Shown here piece by piece: positions 8,571 through 28,041 of a DNA stretch of 38,156 bases. The position numbers were made by a program, and so were the translations under genes. The notes beneath the pieces are model-generated. The model saw only the letters and a program-made list of their open reading frames with translations, was not told the DNA's origin and searched no databases. Within the stretch, counting starts at the first letter, position 1. Each line of letters opens with the position of its first letter. The DNA is from Chromatiaceae bacterium (GTDB lineage: Bacteria; Pseudomonadota; Gammaproteobacteria; Chromatiales; Chromatiaceae): positions 1 through 38,156 of the forward strand of contig REDK01000071.1 in the NCBI GenBank assembly GCA_007693535.1, read 5' to 3'.

Positions 8571-9962
8571 GTGGCCGACCTGGCCAGCAGACCGGTCATC
8601 GGGCTGGATCTCGGCACCTCCGGCTGCCGGGCGCTGGCCGTGGACGCCACCGGCCATGTCATCGCTGCCGCCGCGGTGGACCTACCGGCCCCGCAGCGCG
8701 ATGGCGCGCGGGTCTGGCAGGACCCGGCCTGCTGGTGGCAGGCGGTGGTGGCGGTGCTGGCGCGCCTGGCCGCAGACCTGCGCGCCCTGGTCACCGCGCC
8801 GCCGCGCGCCCTGGCGCTCGACGGCACCTCGGCGACCTTGCTGCTGTGCACCCCCGACGGCCGGCCGCTGGGGCCAGCACTGATGTACAACGACGCCAGC
8901 GCGGCGGCGGCGGCAGACTGGATCGCGCGCTGCGCCCCGGCCGACAGCCCCGCCCGCGGCGCCAGCGCCAGCCTGGCCAAGCTGCTGCACTTGCTGCAGA
9001 CGCGGGCGCCGGTCGCCGGGCCGGTGCTGGCCCTGCACCAGGCCGACTGGATCGGCGCCCGGCTGCGCGGCTGCTATGTCCGCGCCGGGCGGGGTGAGAG
9101 CGACTGGAACAACGGTCTGAAGCTCGGCTTCGACCCGGTCAGCGGACGCTGGCCGGACTGGTTGCGCATGCCGCCGCCGGTGGCTGCGCCCGCGCACTGG
9201 CGCGCCGCTTGGGCGGGCGTCTGGGCGGCCCTGCCCCACTGCCACCCGCCAGGCCAGGATCTGGGCGCGATCGACCCGACCCTGGCGCGGCACCTGGGGC
9301 TACCGGTGGACCTGCGCATCCTGGCCGGCACCACCGACAGCACCGCCGCCGCCTTGGCCGCCGGCATCCAGGCCCCCGGCGACGCGGTGACCAGCCTCGG
9401 CAGCACGCTGGTGCTGAAGCTGGCCAGCCCGCGCCCGGTCAATGCCGCCAGCCACGGGATCTACAGCCATCGTATCGGCGACCTCTGGTTGGCCGGCGGG
9501 GCCTCCAACAGCGGCGGCGCGGTGTTGCGCCAGTTCTTCGACGATGCCCGCCTGGCCGCCCTGAGCGCGCAGATCGATCCAAGCCGCCCGAGTGGCCTGG
9601 ACTACTACCCGCTGCCGGCAATCGGCGAGCGCTTCCCCCATGCCGATGCGCACCTGGCACCCCGGCTCACCCCACGCCCGGCCGATGATGCCCATTTCCT
9701 CGCCGGCCTGTTCGAGGGGATCGCCCACATCGAGCGCGCCGGCTATGCGCGCTTGACCGCCCTCGGCGCGCCGCCGCCGCGACGCATCCTCAGTGTCGGC
9801 GGCGGGGCCGGCAACCGCCAATGGACCGCCATCCGTGCCCGCATCCTGGGACTGCCGGTGCTGCCGGCGGCCCGCCAGGACGCCGCCTATGGCGCCGCCC
9901 GCCTGGCGCTGTCGGCCCAACCAGTTGGCACGACCACGGCCGGTTCCATGCCGTGCGGGTAA
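8571..9962 (+). CDS. FGGY-family carbohydrate kinase
   Basis: This 463-residue protein begins with the actin-like ATPase fold signature VIGLDLGTSGCRALAVDATG. ALALDGTSATLLL, LALHQADWIGARLRG and ILAGTTDSTAAALAAGIQAP follow. The second phosphate-binding segment is TSLGSTLVLK, and the C-terminal GGGAGNRQW segment is the adenosine motif. It phosphorylates a sugar or polyol with ATP. Its length and the SDWNNGLKLGFD segment resemble the D-ribulokinase-like group of cyanobacteria and plants more than xylulokinase or glycerol kinase, so D-ribulose is a guess for the substrate. The start is uncertain: GTG 8571 is chosen because the family signature begins just after it; GTG 8526 is also in frame. It follows queF by 59 bases on the same strand and may be read through from it. 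Confidence 0.88.
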   Translation: MADLASRPVIGLDLGTSGCRALAVDATGHVIAAAAVDLPAPQRDGARVWQDPACWWQAVVAVLARLAADLRALVTAPPRALALDGTSATLLLCTPDGRPLGPALMYNDASAAAAADWIARCAPADSPARGASASLAKLLHLLQTRAPVAGPVLALHQADWIGARLRGCYVRAGRGESDWNNGLKLGFDPVSGRWPDWLRMPPPVAAPAHWRAAWAGVWAALPHCHPPGQDLGAIDPTLARHLGLPVDLRILAGTTDSTAAALAAGIQAPGDAVTSLGSTLVLKLASPRPVNAASHGIYSHRIGDLWLAGGASNSGGAVLRQFFDDARLAALSAQIDPSRPSGLDYYPLPAIGERFPHADAHLAPRLTPRPADDAHFLAGLFEGIAHIERAGYARLTALGAPPPRRILSVGGGAGNRQWTAIRARILGLPVLPAARQDAAYGAARLALSAQPVGTTTAGSMPCG

Positions 9963-10568
9963 AGGACCGAGGCTGGGCGACGCCGCGGCGCGAGGGGGGA
10001 ATCCGGCCGACCCGAAGGACGGCTGCTGAGGCTATCGCATTCTGGCGGGGAGGCCAGCGGGGACGATCGACCCGTAACAGGGCGCCCATAGCCTGCCCGC
10101 GCGCCGAAACCCTAGCCAAGACCGGAACCGGGACCAAACTGACCAAGGTGCGGCCCTGTCGTGGGCAACGCCGGGCGCCGCCGGTGCCACGGCACTGCCG
10201 CCGCCCAACGCAAGACCTTTATCCTGCCCAAGGACTTAGGAAACCATCAACAGTCGCTGTGGATAACTCTGTGCACAAGGCCGGGGCAATGCGCCTAAGT
10301 GCATGGTGCGGCAACCGCCCAGCCGCCTTGGACGAATCTTTACCATCCGGCAGCGTGTTGTTTTTATTGAAATAAAAAATCATCGTGCGCAAAGATGGAC
10401 GCATCGTACACACCCTGGACGCGTCCGCTGCGGATGTGCACAACTGCCGGGCACGGTGGTTGCGGGGACCACCAAGCCGCCCCCTGATCGCGGCCGACCG
10501 CTGACTGCCGGCTGGGGTATTGGTCGAGCAGTAGGCAGGAGGTCAGTCGGATCACCCTGGCATTGCCC
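9963..10568. other. Convergent intergenic region with DnaA-box-like sites and an AT-rich palindrome
   Basis: No gene was found in these 606 bases between the rightward kinase and the leftward ferritin-like gene. A perfect consensus DnaA box (TTATCCACA on the minus strand) is at 10258-10266 inside CTGTGGATAACTCTG, the same string as the strong DnaA boxes in E. coli oriC. Two TGTGCACAA sites (10270-10278 and 10435-10443) are one mismatch from the box. Between them lies an unusually AT-rich stretch (10358-10382) with a perfect 8-bp palindrome, TTTTTATT-GA-AATAAAAA, and a GGACGCGTCC palindrome is at 10418-10427. It could bind DnaA as a minor origin-like or titration site, or the sites may be chance. 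Confidence 0.4.
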
Positions 10569-11108
10569 TCATGGCAGCTGCGGTGGATCCAGATCCTCCG
10601 GCAACGGCCGGTCGGTCAGTGCCTCGCGGGCCAGCAGATCGGCCAACCAGGTCAGATGCTCGGTCTGGACCGCGGCCAGTTCCGCGGCCAGTTGCCGCAC
10701 CACCGGCTCACCAGCGCTGCCGGCCACCTGTAAATAGAAGGCGTGGCTGCGACGCTCGTTGTGGATAGCCAGCCGCAGCGCCTGTACCGCCCGCATCCGG
10801 TAGCCTACCTCGGCATGCAGACAGTCCGGATCGCTCGGATTGCCGGGGCAGTTCCATTTGAACGACCAGGGCGCGATATGCGGCAACTGCAGGCCGGCGG
10901 CACGGTCGGCCAGGTCGCCGGCGCGTTCGCTGCTGCGCCGCGCCAAGCGCCGGAACAGGGCCGCGACCTCGGCGTTGTGATGGCTCGCCATGCTGTCGGC
11001 CAGACCCTCGTAATGGGTGGCCGCCTCGTGTTCCAGTTCCAATGCGTGCACCAAGAGTTCGGCGACGCTGCCGATGGTACCGCTGGCACCAGACTGCTCC
11101 CCGTTCAT
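10569..11108 (-). CDS. Ferritin-like/rubrerythrin-type di-iron protein
   Basis: The 179-residue, mostly helical protein carries the pattern of a ferritin-like four-helix bundle: ELEHEAATHYEGLAD near the N-terminus, NAEVAALFRRLARRS, then NERRSHAFYLQVAG and AVQTEHLTWLADLL toward the C-terminus. The Glu and His in these helices would bind two irons. No rubredoxin CxxC modules are present, so electrons must come from elsewhere. Its ATG overlaps the korB stop (ATGA), so it is translated with korAB. In that setting a role in detoxifying peroxide or oxygen near an oxygen-sensitive ferredoxin oxidoreductase is reasonable but inferred. A Trp-rich middle (IAPWSFKWNCPGNPSDPDC) with two Cys is unusual for rubrerythrin and could shape partner binding. 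Confidence 0.8.
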   Translation of the reverse strand: MNGEQSGASGTIGSVAELLVHALELEHEAATHYEGLADSMASHHNAEVAALFRRLARRSSERAGDLADRAAGLQLPHIAPWSFKWNCPGNPSDPDCLHAEVGYRMRAVQALRLAIHNERRSHAFYLQVAGSAGEPVVRQLAAELAAVQTEHLTWLADLLAREALTDRPLPEDLDPPQLP

Positions 11109-11941
11109 AGCGCAAACTCCGCCTCAATGGCCGCAAGATCGTCGCCTTCCAGGCGTGGCTGGGACTCGAAGGGTGGCAACACCTGGGCATAGAGTAGCCC
11201 CAGCGCCATTCCGTCGTCGGTCAGCATGAGCTGTGCCGCCGTGGCCGGGTCGCGCGCTGGGGCACCGGCACAGGGATGCACCCGCGTCTTCCATTCCCGG
11301 CTTTCGGGACGGAAGGTCTGGCATGGGCTCAACACCTGCACGAAGGCGAACCCGGGATATTCGATGGCCTGGGCCAGCAAGTGCGACAGGCCGTTGGGAT
11401 CGCCAGCAAAGCCGCGGGCAATGAAGCCGGCACCGGCGGCAAGGGCGATGGCGGCTGGCTTGAAGCGCTGCATCCCGGTGCCCTCTGGGGTCAGGCGGCT
11501 GCGGCGCCAGTCCGGGCGGGTGGTGGGTGAGGCCTGCCCCTTGGTCATGCCATAGACTTGGTTGTCCATCACGATGTAGGTCAGGTCCAGGTTGCGCCGG
11601 CAGGCATGCAGGAAGTGATTGCCGCCGATGGAGAAGCCATCGCCATCGCCGCCGGTGACGATCACCGTGAGATCGGGCCGCGCCGCCTTGAGTCCGGTCG
11701 CTAGCGGCAGGGCACGCCCGTGCAAGCCGTGAAAGCCGTAGCAATCCAGATAGGCAGGCAGCCGCGAGGAGCAGCCAATGCCCGAGATCACCGCGATGCG
11801 ATGCTTGGGCAGCGCCAGAAAGGCGAGCGTGCGGGTCAGGGCCGAGAGCACGGCAAAATGGCCGCACCCGGGACACCAGACCGGCTTGAGGTCGGACTTG
11901 TAGTCGCGGGCGCCGAGACTGGGGATGGCGGTGCTATCCAT
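11105..11941 (-). CDS. korB: 2-oxoacid:ferredoxin oxidoreductase, beta subunit
   Basis: The 278-residue subunit binds thiamine diphosphate and one [4Fe-4S] cluster. Cluster ligands are visible as CPGCGH (Cys23, Cys26), GIGCSSR (Cys57) and LSPCQTF (Cys207). The thiamine diphosphate/Mg motif is GGDGDGFSIGGNHFLHACRRN shortened to GDGDGFSIGGNH (about 99-109), followed by DNQVYGMTKGQASPT. With KorA it interconverts a 2-oxoacid and its acyl-CoA with ferredoxin as electron partner. Two-subunit enzymes of this type are usually assigned to 2-oxoglutarate, but pyruvate or a mixed range cannot be excluded from sequence. It follows korA by 81 bases and is coupled to the ferritin-like gene downstream. No separate ferredoxin-type delta subunit gene is in the cluster. 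Confidence 0.92.
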   Translation of the reverse strand: MDSTAIPSLGARDYKSDLKPVWCPGCGHFAVLSALTRTLAFLALPKHRIAVISGIGCSSRLPAYLDCYGFHGLHGRALPLATGLKAARPDLTVIVTGGDGDGFSIGGNHFLHACRRNLDLTYIVMDNQVYGMTKGQASPTTRPDWRRSRLTPEGTGMQRFKPAAIALAAGAGFIARGFAGDPNGLSHLLAQAIEYPGFAFVQVLSPCQTFRPESREWKTRVHPCAGAPARDPATAAQLMLTDDGMALGLLYAQVLPPFESQPRLEGDDLAAIEAEFAL

Positions 11942-18009: not shown

Positions 18010-18699
<690 letters not shown>

Positions 18700-18823: not shown

Positions 18824-18843
18824 ATACCGAGGGTGGTATAACC
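18824..18843 (+). promoter_or_regulatory. Dyad overlapping a possible -10 box upstream of the cytochrome gene
   Basis: The sequence ATACC-GAGGGT-GGTAT (18824-18839) is a perfect 5-bp inverted repeat, and its right arm runs into TATAAC (18838-18843), a fair -10 element. It lies in the only A/T-containing part of the gap between adk and the cytochrome gene, 120 bases before the latter's start. A regulator that binds this dyad could control the cytochrome. No convincing -35 box was found; this is a weak call. Confidence 0.3.
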
Positions 18844-18962
18844 CGGCGAGCCGATGCCCGCACGCCGGGGCGTCGGCGGGGCGCATGCGGCACCACGCCC
18901 CCCCGAGGCCGACCGGAGCCCACGCGGTCGTCTCGTCTTCCACCGACTTCGAGGTCTGCGCG

Positions 18963-20990
18963 ATGCCCGCACCGATATGCCCGCTGCCCCACCTGCCGGG
19001 ACGCCTGCTGACCCTGCCCGCCCGGCTGCCGATCCTCTCCTTGATCCTGCTCTTGCTGGGACTCGCCCTAAGCACCGACGAGGCCGTCGCGGCCCTGCGC
19101 AAGTCCGATCCCAATGCCCCGCCGACGGTGGCGGAACTGCTCGACTTTCCGAACATCCCCAACGGCCGCTGCCTGAAGTGCCACAACGACAAGGACGAGA
19201 TGACCTCCGAGCGCGAGGACGGCACGGAGGTCAATATCTACGTGGACCGGGAACGCTTCGAACACAGCGTCCACGGTCATCAACCCTGCGTCGGCTGCCA
19301 CAACACGGTGCGCAAGGCCAACCATGACATGCCGCTGCCGAAGAGCATCGGCTGCGTCGCCTGCCATCTGAAGACCGCGGAACTGCAGCAGGACCGCGGC
19401 GATTCCGATTACCGCCGCCTCGACGTGGTGCTGGCACAGATCGACGGCTATATGAACTCGGTGCATGCACGGCCGAATCTACTGGACCAGTCGCGCACCA
19501 ACGCCACCTGCTACGACTGCCACGACGCCCATGCCATCGGCACTGTCGGCAGCTCCGCCCGCGCCGAGCACCGCGCCCGCAACCACGAGGTCTGCGGGCG
19601 CTGCCACGAGGAGCAGCGCGGCGATTACGTCCAGTCGATCCATGGCACCGCGGTCATTGATCGCCATGATGCCAGTGCCGCGGTCTGCTCCGACTGCCAT
19701 ACCCCACACAATATCGACTCGCCCGACCAGGACCGCATCAAACTGCTGATCACCGACAACTGCGGCAGTTGTCATCAGAAGCAGGTCAAGACCTATCAGG
19801 CCTCCTACCACGGCCAGATCACCCGCCTGGGCTACACCCACACCGCCAAATGCTACGACTGTCACGGCAGTCACGGCATCATGGATGTGACCGACCCGGC
19901 CAGCAAGGTCCATCCCGATAACCGGCTGGAGACCTGCCGGCAATGCCATGCCGATGCCCCGCCCGGCTTCGTCGGCTTTCGTGCCCATGGCGATGCCAAC
20001 GACTTCAAGCGCTATCCCGAGATGTGGCTCACCGCGCGCTTCATGGAGGCGCTGATCATCGGCGTCTTCCTTTTCTTCTGGACCCACATGCTGCTGTGGA
20101 TCTTCCGCGAATGGATCGATCGCCTGCGCGGCAAGGGTTATCGTCCGGACCCGGCCAACCCGCCCCAGGTCTATTTCCGCCGCTTCAGCCTTGGCTGGCG
20201 CCTGGCACATGGCCTGCTCGCGATCGCCGTGATGACCCTGGTGCTCACCGGGACCGCCGTGCTGTTCTCCGATCAGCCCTGGGCGCAGTACGTGATGAAC
20301 GTGCTCGGTGGCCCCAAGGTCGCAGCCGTCATCCATCGCGTGGCGGCCACCACCTTCGCCGCCATCTTCTTCGGCCATCTGCTGGTGGTGAGCTTCAATA
20401 TCCTGCGCGCCGGCAAGCGCTTCCAGTGGCTCGGCCCCACCTCGATGGTGCCAACCATGCAGGACATCCGCGATATCGGCGCGATGTTCAAATGGTTCCT
20501 GGGCCTGGCCCCGCGGCCACAGTTCGACCGCTGGTCCTACTGGGAGAAATTCGACTACTGGGCGCCATTCTGGGGCATGCTGGTGATCGGTCTGAGCGGA
20601 CTGATGCTCTGGTTCCCGACCGTCACCGCCACGATCCTGCCAGGCTGGGTATTCAATATCGCCACCATCGTCCATGCCGAGGAGGCGATCCTGGCCGCGG
20701 TATTCCTGTTCACCGTGCACTACTTCAATGTGCATTTCCGCCCGGAAAAGTGGCCCATGGACATCGTCATGGCCACCGGCGCAGTTCCGCTCGAAGAATT
20801 CAAGCACGAGCATGCGCTGGAATATGAACGGCTCCAGGCCAGCGGGGAACTGGAGAAGCACCTGGTCAAGCCGCCGACGGCGCGGTCGCGTCGCATCGGG
20901 CGCAAGATCACCGGCTGGCTAATTATCATTGGCCTGGTGCTGGCGGCACTGGTGATCAATGGCTACCTGAACATGCTCAGGGCTCATTGA
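18963..20990 (+). CDS. Nine-haem cytochrome c fused to a b-type membrane domain (CbcL-like)
   Basis: The 675-residue protein begins with a signal/anchor segment (about 20-43). A periplasmic region follows with nine CxxCH haem c sites, starting at Cys70, 109, 131, 183, 211, 242, 267, 297 and 325. After that come about six membrane helices (about 363-381, 417-436, 458-480, 536-556, 567-589, 651-668). Membrane His residues suited to bind b haems include His416, His458, His472, His571 and His586, and VHYFNVHFRPEKWPMD is a family mark. This nine-haem plus FdnI/HydC-like layout is that of CbcL of Geobacter, a quinone-linked inner-membrane cytochrome. It probably passes electrons between the quinone pool and periplasmic carriers, in a direction not known. 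GAGG lies before ATG 18963. It is monocistronic and has no outer-membrane conduit genes beside it. Confidence 0.85.
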   Translation: MPAPICPLPHLPGRLLTLPARLPILSLILLLLGLALSTDEAVAALRKSDPNAPPTVAELLDFPNIPNGRCLKCHNDKDEMTSEREDGTEVNIYVDRERFEHSVHGHQPCVGCHNTVRKANHDMPLPKSIGCVACHLKTAELQQDRGDSDYRRLDVVLAQIDGYMNSVHARPNLLDQSRTNATCYDCHDAHAIGTVGSSARAEHRARNHEVCGRCHEEQRGDYVQSIHGTAVIDRHDASAAVCSDCHTPHNIDSPDQDRIKLLITDNCGSCHQKQVKTYQASYHGQITRLGYTHTAKCYDCHGSHGIMDVTDPASKVHPDNRLETCRQCHADAPPGFVGFRAHGDANDFKRYPEMWLTARFMEALIIGVFLFFWTHMLLWIFREWIDRLRGKGYRPDPANPPQVYFRRFSLGWRLAHGLLAIAVMTLVLTGTAVLFSDQPWAQYVMNVLGGPKVAAVIHRVAATTFAAIFFGHLLVVSFNILRAGKRFQWLGPTSMVPTMQDIRDIGAMFKWFLGLAPRPQFDRWSYWEKFDYWAPFWGMLVIGLSGLMLWFPTVTATILPGWVFNIATIVHAEEAILAAVFLFTVHYFNVHFRPEKWPMDIVMATGAVPLEEFKHEHALEYERLQASGELEKHLVKPPTARSRRIGRKITGWLIIIGLVLAALVINGYLNMLRAH

Positions 20991-21223: not shown

Positions 21224-21997
21224 TCAGCCAGCCAGCAGCGGGCGCAGATCGAGCCCGGCCGCCAGCGCCGCGGTGGCCGGCGCCGGCAGCCAGGGCAGGC
21301 TGCCGAGCAGGGGGGCGTCGATCAGGGTCGCCAGGGTCGCGACATTCTCCTCGCGTACCGGCATCAGCGGATCGAGCAGATTGGCCACCCAGCCGGCCAG
21401 CGCCAAGCCGCTGCGGCGGATCGCCTCGCAGGTCAGCAGGGCGTGGTTCAGACAACCCAGCCGCAATCCCACCACCAGCACCACCGGCAACCCCAGCGCC
21501 GCCGGCAGGTCGCTGACAGCCAGCCGGGGGCCGAGCGGCACCCGCCAACCACCAACCCCCTCGACCAGCACCCAATCGGTCTGCGCAGCCAAGGCCTGAT
21601 AGGCCGTATCGATGGTCTCCAGCGCGATCTCGACCCCGGCCAGGCCGGCCGCGATATGCGGTGCGATGGGCGGGGCAAAGGCATAGGGATTGATCAACTC
21701 ATAAGGCATCGGCTGACTGCCCTGGGCAAGCAGGCGCTCGGCATCGTCGGAGCGCAGGGCCGTCGGCCCGGTCCCAAGGGCCGGCAGGCAGGCACGAATG
21801 CTGGCCAGTCCCGCGCCGGCCGGCCCGTCGGCCAGGGGATCGGGAAGCGCTGGTGCGGGGCCTGCGGCGCAGCCAGAGGCGACCGGCTTCATCCCGAGCG
21901 CCCGCTGCCCTTGCTGCTGCAGCGCCGCCATCAGGGCCAGGGTGACCTCGGTCTTGCCCACCCCTGTATCGGTGCCGGTGATGAACAGCCCGCTCAT
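21224..21997 (-). CDS. bioD: Dethiobiotin synthetase
   Basis: The 257-residue protein makes dethiobiotin from 7,8-diaminononanoate, CO2 and ATP. The P-loop is ITGTDTGVGKTEV (6-18), MKPVASGC carries the substrate lysine, and VLVEGVGGWRVPL is the conserved EGxGG region. Then DLPAALGLPVVLVVGLRLGC and LNHALLT match. An insertion of Ala/Gly/Pro-rich residues (about 44-75) makes it longer than the E. coli enzyme (about 225). Its ATG overlaps the bioC stop by four bases (ATGA). It is the last gene of the bio operon. Confidence 0.95.
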   Translation of the reverse strand: MSGLFITGTDTGVGKTEVTLALMAALQQQGQRALGMKPVASGCAAGPAPALPDPLADGPAGAGLASIRACLPALGTGPTALRSDDAERLLAQGSQPMPYELINPYAFAPPIAPHIAAGLAGVEIALETIDTAYQALAAQTDWVLVEGVGGWRVPLGPRLAVSDLPAALGLPVVLVVGLRLGCLNHALLTCEAIRRSGLALAGWVANLLDPLMPVREENVATLATLIDAPLLGSLPWLPAPATAALAAGLDLRPLLAG

Positions 21998-26534: not shown

Positions 26535-27977
26535 TTACAGCAGGAAGATCGTGGCTAGACCGAGGAAGATGAAGAAGCCGCCGGAGTCGGTGGTGGCAGT
26601 GATCATGACCGAGCTGCCCAGGGCCGGGTCGCGCCCCAGGCGCTGGCGTATCAATGGGATCAGGACCCCGGCGGTGGCGGCCACCAGCAGGTTGAGCGTC
26701 ATCGCCGCCACCATCACCATCCCCAGTCCGCTATTGTGATAGACCAGCGCGGCCAAGGTGCCAATCACGCTGCCCCAAACCAGACCGTTGATCAGGGCGA
26801 CCCCCAGTTCCTTGAGCAACAGCCGACCCATGGCCGAGGGCTGCACCTGGCCCATGGCGAGCGCACGCACGATCATGGTAATGGTCTGATTGCCCGCATT
26901 GCCGCCAATGCCGGCGACGATCGGCATGAGCGCCGCCAGCGCCACCAACTGACTGATCGAACCCTCGAACAGGTCGATCACCCGCGAGGCGATTACCGCG
27001 GTCACCAGATTGATTGCCAGCCAGGCCCAGCGGTTTTTCACCGAGCGCAATACCGGGGCGAAGATGTCTTCTTCCTCGCGCAGACCGGCGTTGTTGAGGA
27101 TCTCGGTCTCGGTCTCTTCGCGGATGTAATCAACCACGTCGGCGACGGTGAGGCGCCCGATCAGGCGCTTGTCGGCATCCACCACCGGCATCGAGACCAG
27201 CTCGTAGCGTTCGAAGGCATTGGCGGCATGGTCGGCCTCGGCCTCCGGGCCGAACAGGATCAGACCCTTGGATTGCATCACGGCGGCGACCTCCACCTCC
27301 GGGTCGTTCACCAGCAGCATGTCCAGGGTCAGGATGCCGCGCAGCCGGTCCTCGCGATCGACCACGAACAGCTTGTCGGTGTGGTCCGGCAGGCGATCGA
27401 AGCGGCGCAGATAGCGCAGCACCACTTCCAGACGCACGTCCTCGCGCACCTTGACCAGGTCGAAGTCCATCAGGGCGCCGACACTGCCCTCTGGGTAGGA
27501 CATGGCGGCACGCACCTGCTCCTGTTCCTCGCGGTCCAGCGAGGCGAGCACCTCCTGCACCACCTCGGGCGGCAGGTCTGGGGCCAGATCGGCCAGCTCG
27601 TCGGCATCCAGGGACTCGACCGCAGCCTTGATCTCAGCCTCGTCCATGCTGCCGAGCAGGCTCTCGCGTACCGCATCGGAGACCTCCAGCAGGATGTCCC
27701 CGTCCTTGTCCGCCCGCACCAGATCCCAGACATAGAGCCGCTTGGCCAGCGGCAGGGCCTCCAGGATGAAGGCGATGTCGGCCGGATGCAGGCGGTCGAG
27801 CTTGGCCTGCAGGCGCGCCCGATGTTGCTGCTGGGTGATGGTCTCGACCAGGGCCTGGTGGGGCTGCTGCTGGCGCCGCTCGAGGTTCTCAACCAGTTGA
27901 TGGCGCGACAGCAGGCGTTCCACGTCCAGTAGTTGGCGCTGCAGCGCGTCTTGATTCGGGCGGGGCAGATCGGGCAT
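26535..27977 (-). CDS. mgtE: Magnesium transporter MgtE
   Basis: The 480-residue protein is a Mg2+ channel of the inner membrane. An N-terminal helical domain begins with LHPADIAFILEALPL, and repeats of the type ESLDADELADLAPDLPPE. Two CBS domains (about 190-310) bind Mg2+ and gate the pore. Then come five membrane helices with pore segments GGNAGNQTITMIVRALA and the last helix with TDSGGFFIFLGLATIFLL. The start ATG 27977 (MPDLPRPNQDALQRQ) agrees with relatives; ATG 28028 would add 17 residues without likeness. It is alone on its strand. No Mg riboswitch was seen in the leader, which is taken up by a repeat element. Confidence 0.95.
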   Translation of the reverse strand: MPDLPRPNQDALQRQLLDVERLLSRHQLVENLERRQQQPHQALVETITQQQHRARLQAKLDRLHPADIAFILEALPLAKRLYVWDLVRADKDGDILLEVSDAVRESLLGSMDEAEIKAAVESLDADELADLAPDLPPEVVQEVLASLDREEQEQVRAAMSYPEGSVGALMDFDLVKVREDVRLEVVLRYLRRFDRLPDHTDKLFVVDREDRLRGILTLDMLLVNDPEVEVAAVMQSKGLILFGPEAEADHAANAFERYELVSMPVVDADKRLIGRLTVADVVDYIREETETEILNNAGLREEEDIFAPVLRSVKNRWAWLAINLVTAVIASRVIDLFEGSISQLVALAALMPIVAGIGGNAGNQTITMIVRALAMGQVQPSAMGRLLLKELGVALINGLVWGSVIGTLAALVYHNSGLGMVMVAAMTLNLLVAATAGVLIPLIRQRLGRDPALGSSVMITATTDSGGFFIFLGLATIFLL

Positions 27978-28041
27978 CGGCGCAGACTCGGGTCGAGCGT
28001 TGAGGACGGCATGCGGCCGGGCCGGCAACCGGCATGGCGTG

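Follow-up and report, generated by a model that had tools for sequence, protein, structure and literature searches.

The closest described systems are membrane cytochromes in which a multihaem c-type domain is joined to a b-type domain. CbcL of Geobacter sulfurreducens, as set out in the accessible text of its description, comprises nine bis-His c haems and a di-haem b domain of six helices and hands its electrons to periplasmic PpcA (PMC9129911). According to the accessible text of a further study, homologues of CbcL, MtrH and MtoC are found in 15 phyla, among them the sulfur oxidiser Sulfuricaulis limicola, and the identity of Geobacter CbcL to MtrH/MtoC is about 35% (PMC6295460). The initial annotation had regarded this family as unusual outside the metal reducers, a view that the published spread does not support. 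Both the family and its spread are already in print; the new part is its association with fccAB and other partner neighbourhoods. No report of a link between fccAB and the nine-haem family was found in the literature searched, which took in only a minority of subscription journals. Within their accessible parts, no mention of CbcL was found in the Thiocapsa bogorovii genome paper (PMC10892978) and no CbcL homologue is reported in the published Deferribacter genome.

The gene considered here lies in a window, by which we mean the whole analysed stretch of 38,156 nucleotides from a Chromatiaceae bacterium. Its product resembles MtrH of Rhodoferax ferrireducens and MtoC of Dechloromonas and Gallionella in length, in its nine haem sites and in its six-helix FdnI-like domain, and it shares nine c haems and a six-helix b domain with CbcL of Geobacter sulfurreducens, the latter likeness being drawn from the published description. 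It is 47% identical to three Rhodoferax sequences (L099, L100, L115), the comparison covering these rows rather than MtrH and MtoC proper, and 47-52% identical to eight rows of the alignment that adjoin mtr-labelled genes. Since 47% exceeds the published figure for Geobacter CbcL, itself outside the comparison, we place the window protein nearer to MtrH/MtoC. Unlike the genes of MtrH and MtoC, the window gene has no mtrAB neighbours, and its sister branch is paired with fccAB. FdnI, the gamma subunit of formate dehydrogenase-N, has the b-domain fold in common with the window protein and lacks a fused c-haem domain; NapC is anchored by a single helix and lacks a b haem.

We are confident that the window protein belongs to the class of inner-membrane quinone/quinol:periplasmic cytochrome oxidoreductases of the CbcL/MtrH/MtoC family. 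The full proposal, a stand-alone quinone:periplasmic-cytochrome oxidoreductase serving sulfur-derived electrons, is one to which we give even chances, and the sulfur partner and the direction of electron flow are assigned tentatively.

The fusion cytochrome and its setting

The gene occupies positions 18,963-20,990 of the forward strand and encodes 675 residues in an open frame, the in-frame opening beginning already at 18,885; its assignment draws on Pfam, the alignment and an AlphaFold2 model. A putative Shine-Dalgarno element, GAGG, can be read off the forward strand at 18,951-18,954, 8 bases ahead of the ATG. It is followed by a probable Sec signal peptide (18,963-19,094, forward strand), in which hydropathy marks residues 18-36 as hydrophobic and cleavage would fall near residue 44. 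The periplasmic domain (19,170-19,988, forward strand) carries nine CxxCH motifs, at residues 70, 109, 131, 183, 211, 242, 267, 297 and 325, and both Pfam and NCBIfam recognize c-type multihaem domains in the protein. This number is not attributable to chance, because 2000 shuffles of the same residues yielded a mean of 0.023 motifs and never more than two. In an alignment of 47 sequences, consisting of the window protein and 46 rows hand-picked from the best 80 named loci (one further row, which contained a stop, was dropped), the nine c-haem sites are conserved throughout (47/47), and the c domain has exactly nine other invariant histidines (47/47 each): 104, 121, 168, 190, 227, 249, 283, 304 and 342. 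These distal ligand candidates would match the need of nine bis-His haems. The fifth haem site, CGRCH in the window protein, has the form CxxxCH rather than CxxCH in nine rows (L097, L098, L100, L107, L111, L115, L123, L132, L138), several of which are Rhodoferax-like or mtr-labelled.

The membrane domain (20,016-20,984, forward strand) is assigned six helices, at residues 352-388, 410-434, 451-486, 526-550, 562-591 and 640-674, from AlphaFold2, Foldseek and conservation. The Pfam model Ni_hydr_CYTB/b561 matches the protein at 31.4 bits (cut-off 30.1), and the NCBIfam model of formate dehydrogenase gamma matches residues 406-623 at 34.8 bits, far under its cut-off of 115.85. The AlphaFold2 model (mean pLDDT 83.4, pTM 0.75) has six long membrane helices, and the sole Foldseek match in the PDB at E<=0.001 is FdnI (1kqf_C), with a probability of 1.00, a TM score by target of 0.74 and 17% identity. 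By sequence profile FdnI was found weakly (E 0.2), and a sequence search of the PDB with the b domain alone gave no match. Four candidate b-haem ligands, H416 in helix 2, H458 in helix 3 and H571 and H586 in helix 5 of the model, are invariant in 47/47 aligned rows, as is H591 (47/47); H375 is kept in 45/47 and H472 in 44/47. The haem ligands of FdnI are His18, His57, His155 and His169, and the four candidates occur in the same order. The CbcL-type layout proposed initially, nine CxxCH motifs followed by a multi-helix b-type domain, is therefore confirmed by motifs, Pfam, AlphaFold2 and Foldseek alike, and the membrane histidines are predicted to be able to bind haem, four invariant candidates lying in FdnI-fold helices of a model that itself contains no haems. 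By analogy with FdnI and CbcL, two b haems would pass electrons through the membrane, either towards or away from a quinone site, and a wire of nine c haems would reach soluble periplasmic cytochromes.

The gene is real and intact and, judged from its sequence, probably functional. Its GC3 of 0.842 is neighbour-like (0.807-0.874 in five neighbouring genes). No other full-length copy was found in its own genome, where a second match shows 25% identity over part of the haem region only. On one side, adk (Pfam ADK; 18,010-18,678, reverse strand) is divergent from it, and on the other side lies a convergent bio-type cluster that includes a bioD-type AAA_26 protein (Pfam domain; 21,224-21,997, reverse strand). 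The domain search of this cluster returned AAA_26, methyltransferase, alpha/beta hydrolase, aminotransferase and radical SAM+BATS, which we take to be bioD, bioC, bioH, bioF and bioB. Within the window, its stand-alone position between adk and a bio operon thus stood up to analysis. The adk-bio junction could not be recognized as a conserved insertion point: adk and bioD lie on separate contigs in the six other same-genus genomes with matches to both, and adk was not found at threshold in a seventh (G170), so that adk-bio synteny is uninformative. An MgtE-type cation transporter lies at 26,535-28,028 of the window, about 5.5 kb from the cytochrome gene, and a transporter of the same type directly adjoins the nine-haem gene of genome G074 (L032:10864-12555); this nearness in both is perhaps a trace of older synteny.

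The 284-base gap common to adk and the cytochrome gene contains a perfect dyad, ATACC-N6-GGTAT (18,824-18,839), for which a role as a regulator site had been raised as a question. As a 20-base pattern it is unique in its own genome, and with up to two mismatches it is found upstream of 0/21 close-type rows (13 different genes, eight fetched twice). Because it is both unique in the genome and missing upstream of relatives, the dyad is not a conserved operator. It overlaps TATAAC, a possible -10 box.

Relatives, their neighbours and their phylogeny

When examining the distribution of the family within the order, 100 of 195 genomes match at E<=1e-20, partial matches included. The close type is present in 14 of the 195, namely in the own genome, in 11 at 76-81% identity and in two as pieces that lie side by side, 74-75% and 64% identical, and it is open and stop-free in the 13 others. 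No second full-length homologue was found at E<=1e-20 in any of these 14 genomes. Such a rule of one type per genome lends weak support to an equivalent function of the types, with relatedness as a confounder. Within the own genus, full-length homologues occur in two of eight genomes (own and G134), and these are of two different types. A 71-residue remnant of a close-type gene, 76% identical, is encoded at G116:C1:2192587-2192799, the genome of G116 (genus code g29) being a single contig. Both this patchy distribution and the remnant would suit a relic that had lost its partner and is no longer used, a scenario we consider very improbable, given that the frame is intact, that no haem or membrane ligand is missing, that GC3 is neighbour-like and that the frames of the close type are stop-free elsewhere.

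Among the matches listed from the all-species collection, 590 stretches fit the pattern and 574 of them code for a relative; the best 80 named loci were kept. Genes up to 6.5 kb away, whichever their strand, were labelled by BLAST hits to seed proteins (E<=1e-8). The seeds were chosen by Pfam and NCBIfam: FCSD_central plus FCSD-flav_bind for FccB, Multi-haem_cyto for the octahaem proteins, MtrB_PioB for MtrB, a DmsE-family decahaem model for MtrA and Cytochrome_CBB3/Cytochrom_C for class-I cytochromes, while the MtrC seeds were named only by their place beside MtrAB. It is evident from these 80 loci that homologues adjoin differing periplasmic partners: 14 carry an fcc label for the fccAB sulfide dehydrogenase, seven an octahaem protein of the hydroxylamine oxidoreductase (HAO) type, 12 an Mtr A/B/C label and 21 class-I multihaem cytochromes (three loci bear two labels), and the 29 without a label are an upper bound, contigs often being short and monohaem and NapC-like neighbours being left uncounted. 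fccA (+1) and fccB (+2) follow closely on the same strand in 23 loci, among them four or more places fetched twice; the gaps measure -4 to 124 and -92 to 85 bases, respectively. In L100 and L111 the nine-haem gene has MtrA, MtrB and MtrC labels beside it. This range of partners suggests that the family, familiar from metal respiration, serves as an all-purpose link between quinones and redox enzymes of the periplasm.

An HAO-like octahaem gene is located upstream of the nine-haem gene in L047-L054, L092, L095, L108, L110, L118, L136 and L145. A 420-aa gene separates the two in L048 and L050; in L048 this gene encodes an ammonium transporter. The pair is a possible quinone-linked nitrite/hydroxylamine module.

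A set of 119 rows, reduced to 88 by thinning at 88% identity, was used to estimate the phylogeny of the whole protein in a quick IQ-TREE run with SH-aLRT support only. The window protein falls in a clade of seven Chromatiaceae rows, Thiocapsa and others (support 100), none of which (0/7) has a labelled partner. Its sister is a clade of 20 rows (support 99), 14 of them fcc-labelled and six unlabelled, and the two are joined as a set of 27 rows (support 100). Of all fcc rows, 14/15 are within the 20-row clade, the exception being L085. Next to join the 27 rows (support 89) are L088, which is MtrAB-labelled, L085 and L086, the last with a class-I label; because these sit just outside, FccAB is one of several candidates for the ancestral partner of the 27 rows. 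The HAO-labelled rows are all (15/15) within one set of 16 rows (support 99). In a tree of the b domain, the same 7-row and 27-row sets were recovered, each with support 99. The b domain therefore takes the same place as the whole protein, in a tree without Geobacter CbcL with which either a near or a distant kinship to CbcL would be compatible. The window protein aligns over its length, and falls in one tree, with the Rhodoferax/Ramlibacter-type rows found beside mtr genes, a weak sign of family membership, all rows being homologues by selection.

The clade of the window protein either lost a fixed partner or never had one. In the five loci of this clade with wide flanks (L032-L035, L060), no labelled redox gene is found beside the nine-haem gene (0/5). 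Downstream, four of the five have an FGE-sulfatase/PEGA-type gene, and upstream three have an RND pump, in each case on the opposite strand; we take neither for a partner. Since there is no fixed partner, soluble cytochromes are the most likely partners, and electron exchange would most likely be with soluble, probably dihaem class-I, cytochromes. Elsewhere, in L036, L037 and L063, the nine-haem gene is near a dihaem class-I cytochrome, which itself adjoins a secreted-looking ankyrin-repeat protein (repeats recognized by Pfam in L036); the genus code of L036 and L063 also covers the Escarpia symbiont of L069.

FccAB and the direction of electron flow

The own genome assembly (4.16 Mb in 186 contigs) contains photosynthetic reaction-centre genes (Photo_RC) and one FCSD flavin-binding match. 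The host is phototrophic and probably one of the purple sulfur bacteria, and its initial reading as a gammaproteobacterium was correct. Sulfur-compound oxidation had been named as a candidate role, and it gains from the fccAB neighbours in the sister clade: because that sister branch is mostly joined to fccAB, the branch of the window protein, too, would belong with sulfur oxidation, as far as its relatives indicate. During phototrophic growth on reduced sulfur, flow from the periplasm to the quinone would be the likelier direction.

Despite this kinship, fccAB was not found beside the window gene. Thinning at 93% reduced the 50 FccB sequences found to 36; in the resulting tree, 16 of the 21 rows linked to a nine-haem gene form one clade (support 100). 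The other five (L072, L077, L073 and two of L085) lie elsewhere, and L073 and one of L085 join the set of the own FccB (support 87). This sole FccB of the own genome groups with standalone ones (8 rows at support 100, 9 rows at support 98), outside the linked clade. Eight of the other 13 close-type genomes were sampled for FccB, and none of the 10 proteins fetched from them belongs to the linked clade (0/10, of 12 counted; five were thinned as near-copies).

In the own standalone operon (C69, L146:7143-11334), two genes lie ahead of fccA, one for a 344-aa protein and one of the NapC/NirT tetrahaem type. A relative of the 344-aa gene is inside the fetched stretch in 9/20 other standalone fccAB loci, and the NapC-type gene is present in the same order in 9/9 of those extended, only the nine with the 344-aa gene having been extended. 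This gene order resembles Alvin_1092-1095 of Allochromatium vinosum, which in the accessible text of PMC11267869 are strongly induced on pyrite; Alvin_1095 is called a 4-haem cytochrome in the text of that study and is annotated otherwise in its Table 1. The tetrahaem protein, encoded at a locus separate from that of the window protein, would be a plausible quinone-side partner of FccAB. Because the own FccB is of the standalone type with its own NapC-type gene, canonical FccAB may not need the window protein, and a direct role with FccAB is weakened; the quinone-side partner of the own FccAB is probably not the window protein. FccAB thus seems to have two alternative partners on the quinone side, a NapC-type tetrahaem protein and the nine-haem c/b fusion. 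This bears on the role of FccAB in A. vinosum, which the accessible text describes as unresolved, mutants still oxidizing sulfide (PMC11267869). The same source states that Thiocapsa roseopersicina produces no flavocytochrome c, a point against the preferred reading, and fccAB genes are listed for the genome of Thiocapsa bogorovii (PMC10892978).

It is also conceivable, though unlikely, that the window protein runs in reverse, as a quinol oxidase that relieves an over-reduced quinone pool onto periplasmic acceptors, such as polysulfide or S0 in the dark, or nitrite or hydroxylamine via an octahaem protein, much as CbcL passes electrons to PpcA in Geobacter (PMC9129911). Such a role is consistent with the HAO-paired part of the family and with an octahaem Multi-haem_cyto protein encoded in the own genome (C135). 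However, this octahaem gene has its own adjoining NapC/NirT-type gene, and the branch of the window protein is sister to the fccAB-linked and not to the HAO-linked branch. We tentatively keep to the forward flow of sulfur-derived electrons as the preferred reading. A broader scheme, which we offer as speculative and more probably wrong than right, is that the Chromatiales and some betaproteobacteria possess a sulfide-to-quinone route that bypasses both SQR and the customary soluble cytochrome c, with electrons passing from FccAB to a dedicated nine-haem c/b fusion and on to quinone. The clade of the window protein would then be that module set free, in purple sulfur bacteria an all-round gateway linking quinone with the cytochromes of the periplasm, which could run forward on sulfide under light and in reverse, onto sulfur, in darkness.

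Outer-membrane conduits and other multihaem proteins

A further scenario is that the window protein is the inner-membrane end of extracellular electron transfer, either taking up electrons that come from Fe(II), pyrite or an electrode or exporting them. The Mtr labels among the best named relatives, including L088 next to the 27-row clade, are in its favor, as are the close-type genomes with an MtrB match: MtrB is matched in 32/195 genomes at E<=0.001 (29 above cut-off) and, at E<=1e-29, in five of the 14 close-type genomes (G078, G104, G128, G143, G151), the match in G128 being partial. Extracellular electron transfer is thus more plausible in those five than in the own genome, which has no MtrB/PioB match at E<=0.001 in a search limited to conduits of that type and for which MtrB-type transfer was accordingly rejected. 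No mtr seeds match near the window gene, and the absence of a porin-cytochrome partner noted at the outset holds for the window. Furthermore, the 11 Mtr-labelled rows of the whole-protein tree are dispersed, requiring 10 changes, a number that 168 of 500 shuffles matched or undercut; in the b-domain tree they are slightly less so (9 changes; 36 of 500 shuffles). Taking both sides together, we regard a part in extracellular electron transfer as improbable for the window protein and retain exchange with soluble periplasmic cytochromes.

A heptahaem protein and an adjoining octahaem-type frame, the latter possibly misread in its N-terminal part, are encoded without a recognized porin on C25 of the own genome (L147:7592-8632 and 8895-11432); the heptahaem protein matches no NCBIfam model at cut-off. 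It was rejected as a specific partner, being present in 71/195 genomes; these include all 14 close-type genomes, which relatedness may explain. In one relative, L065 (G070:C7), the c-type and b-type parts are separate genes, and the set is tripled and accompanied by 11-haem and 20-haem genes.
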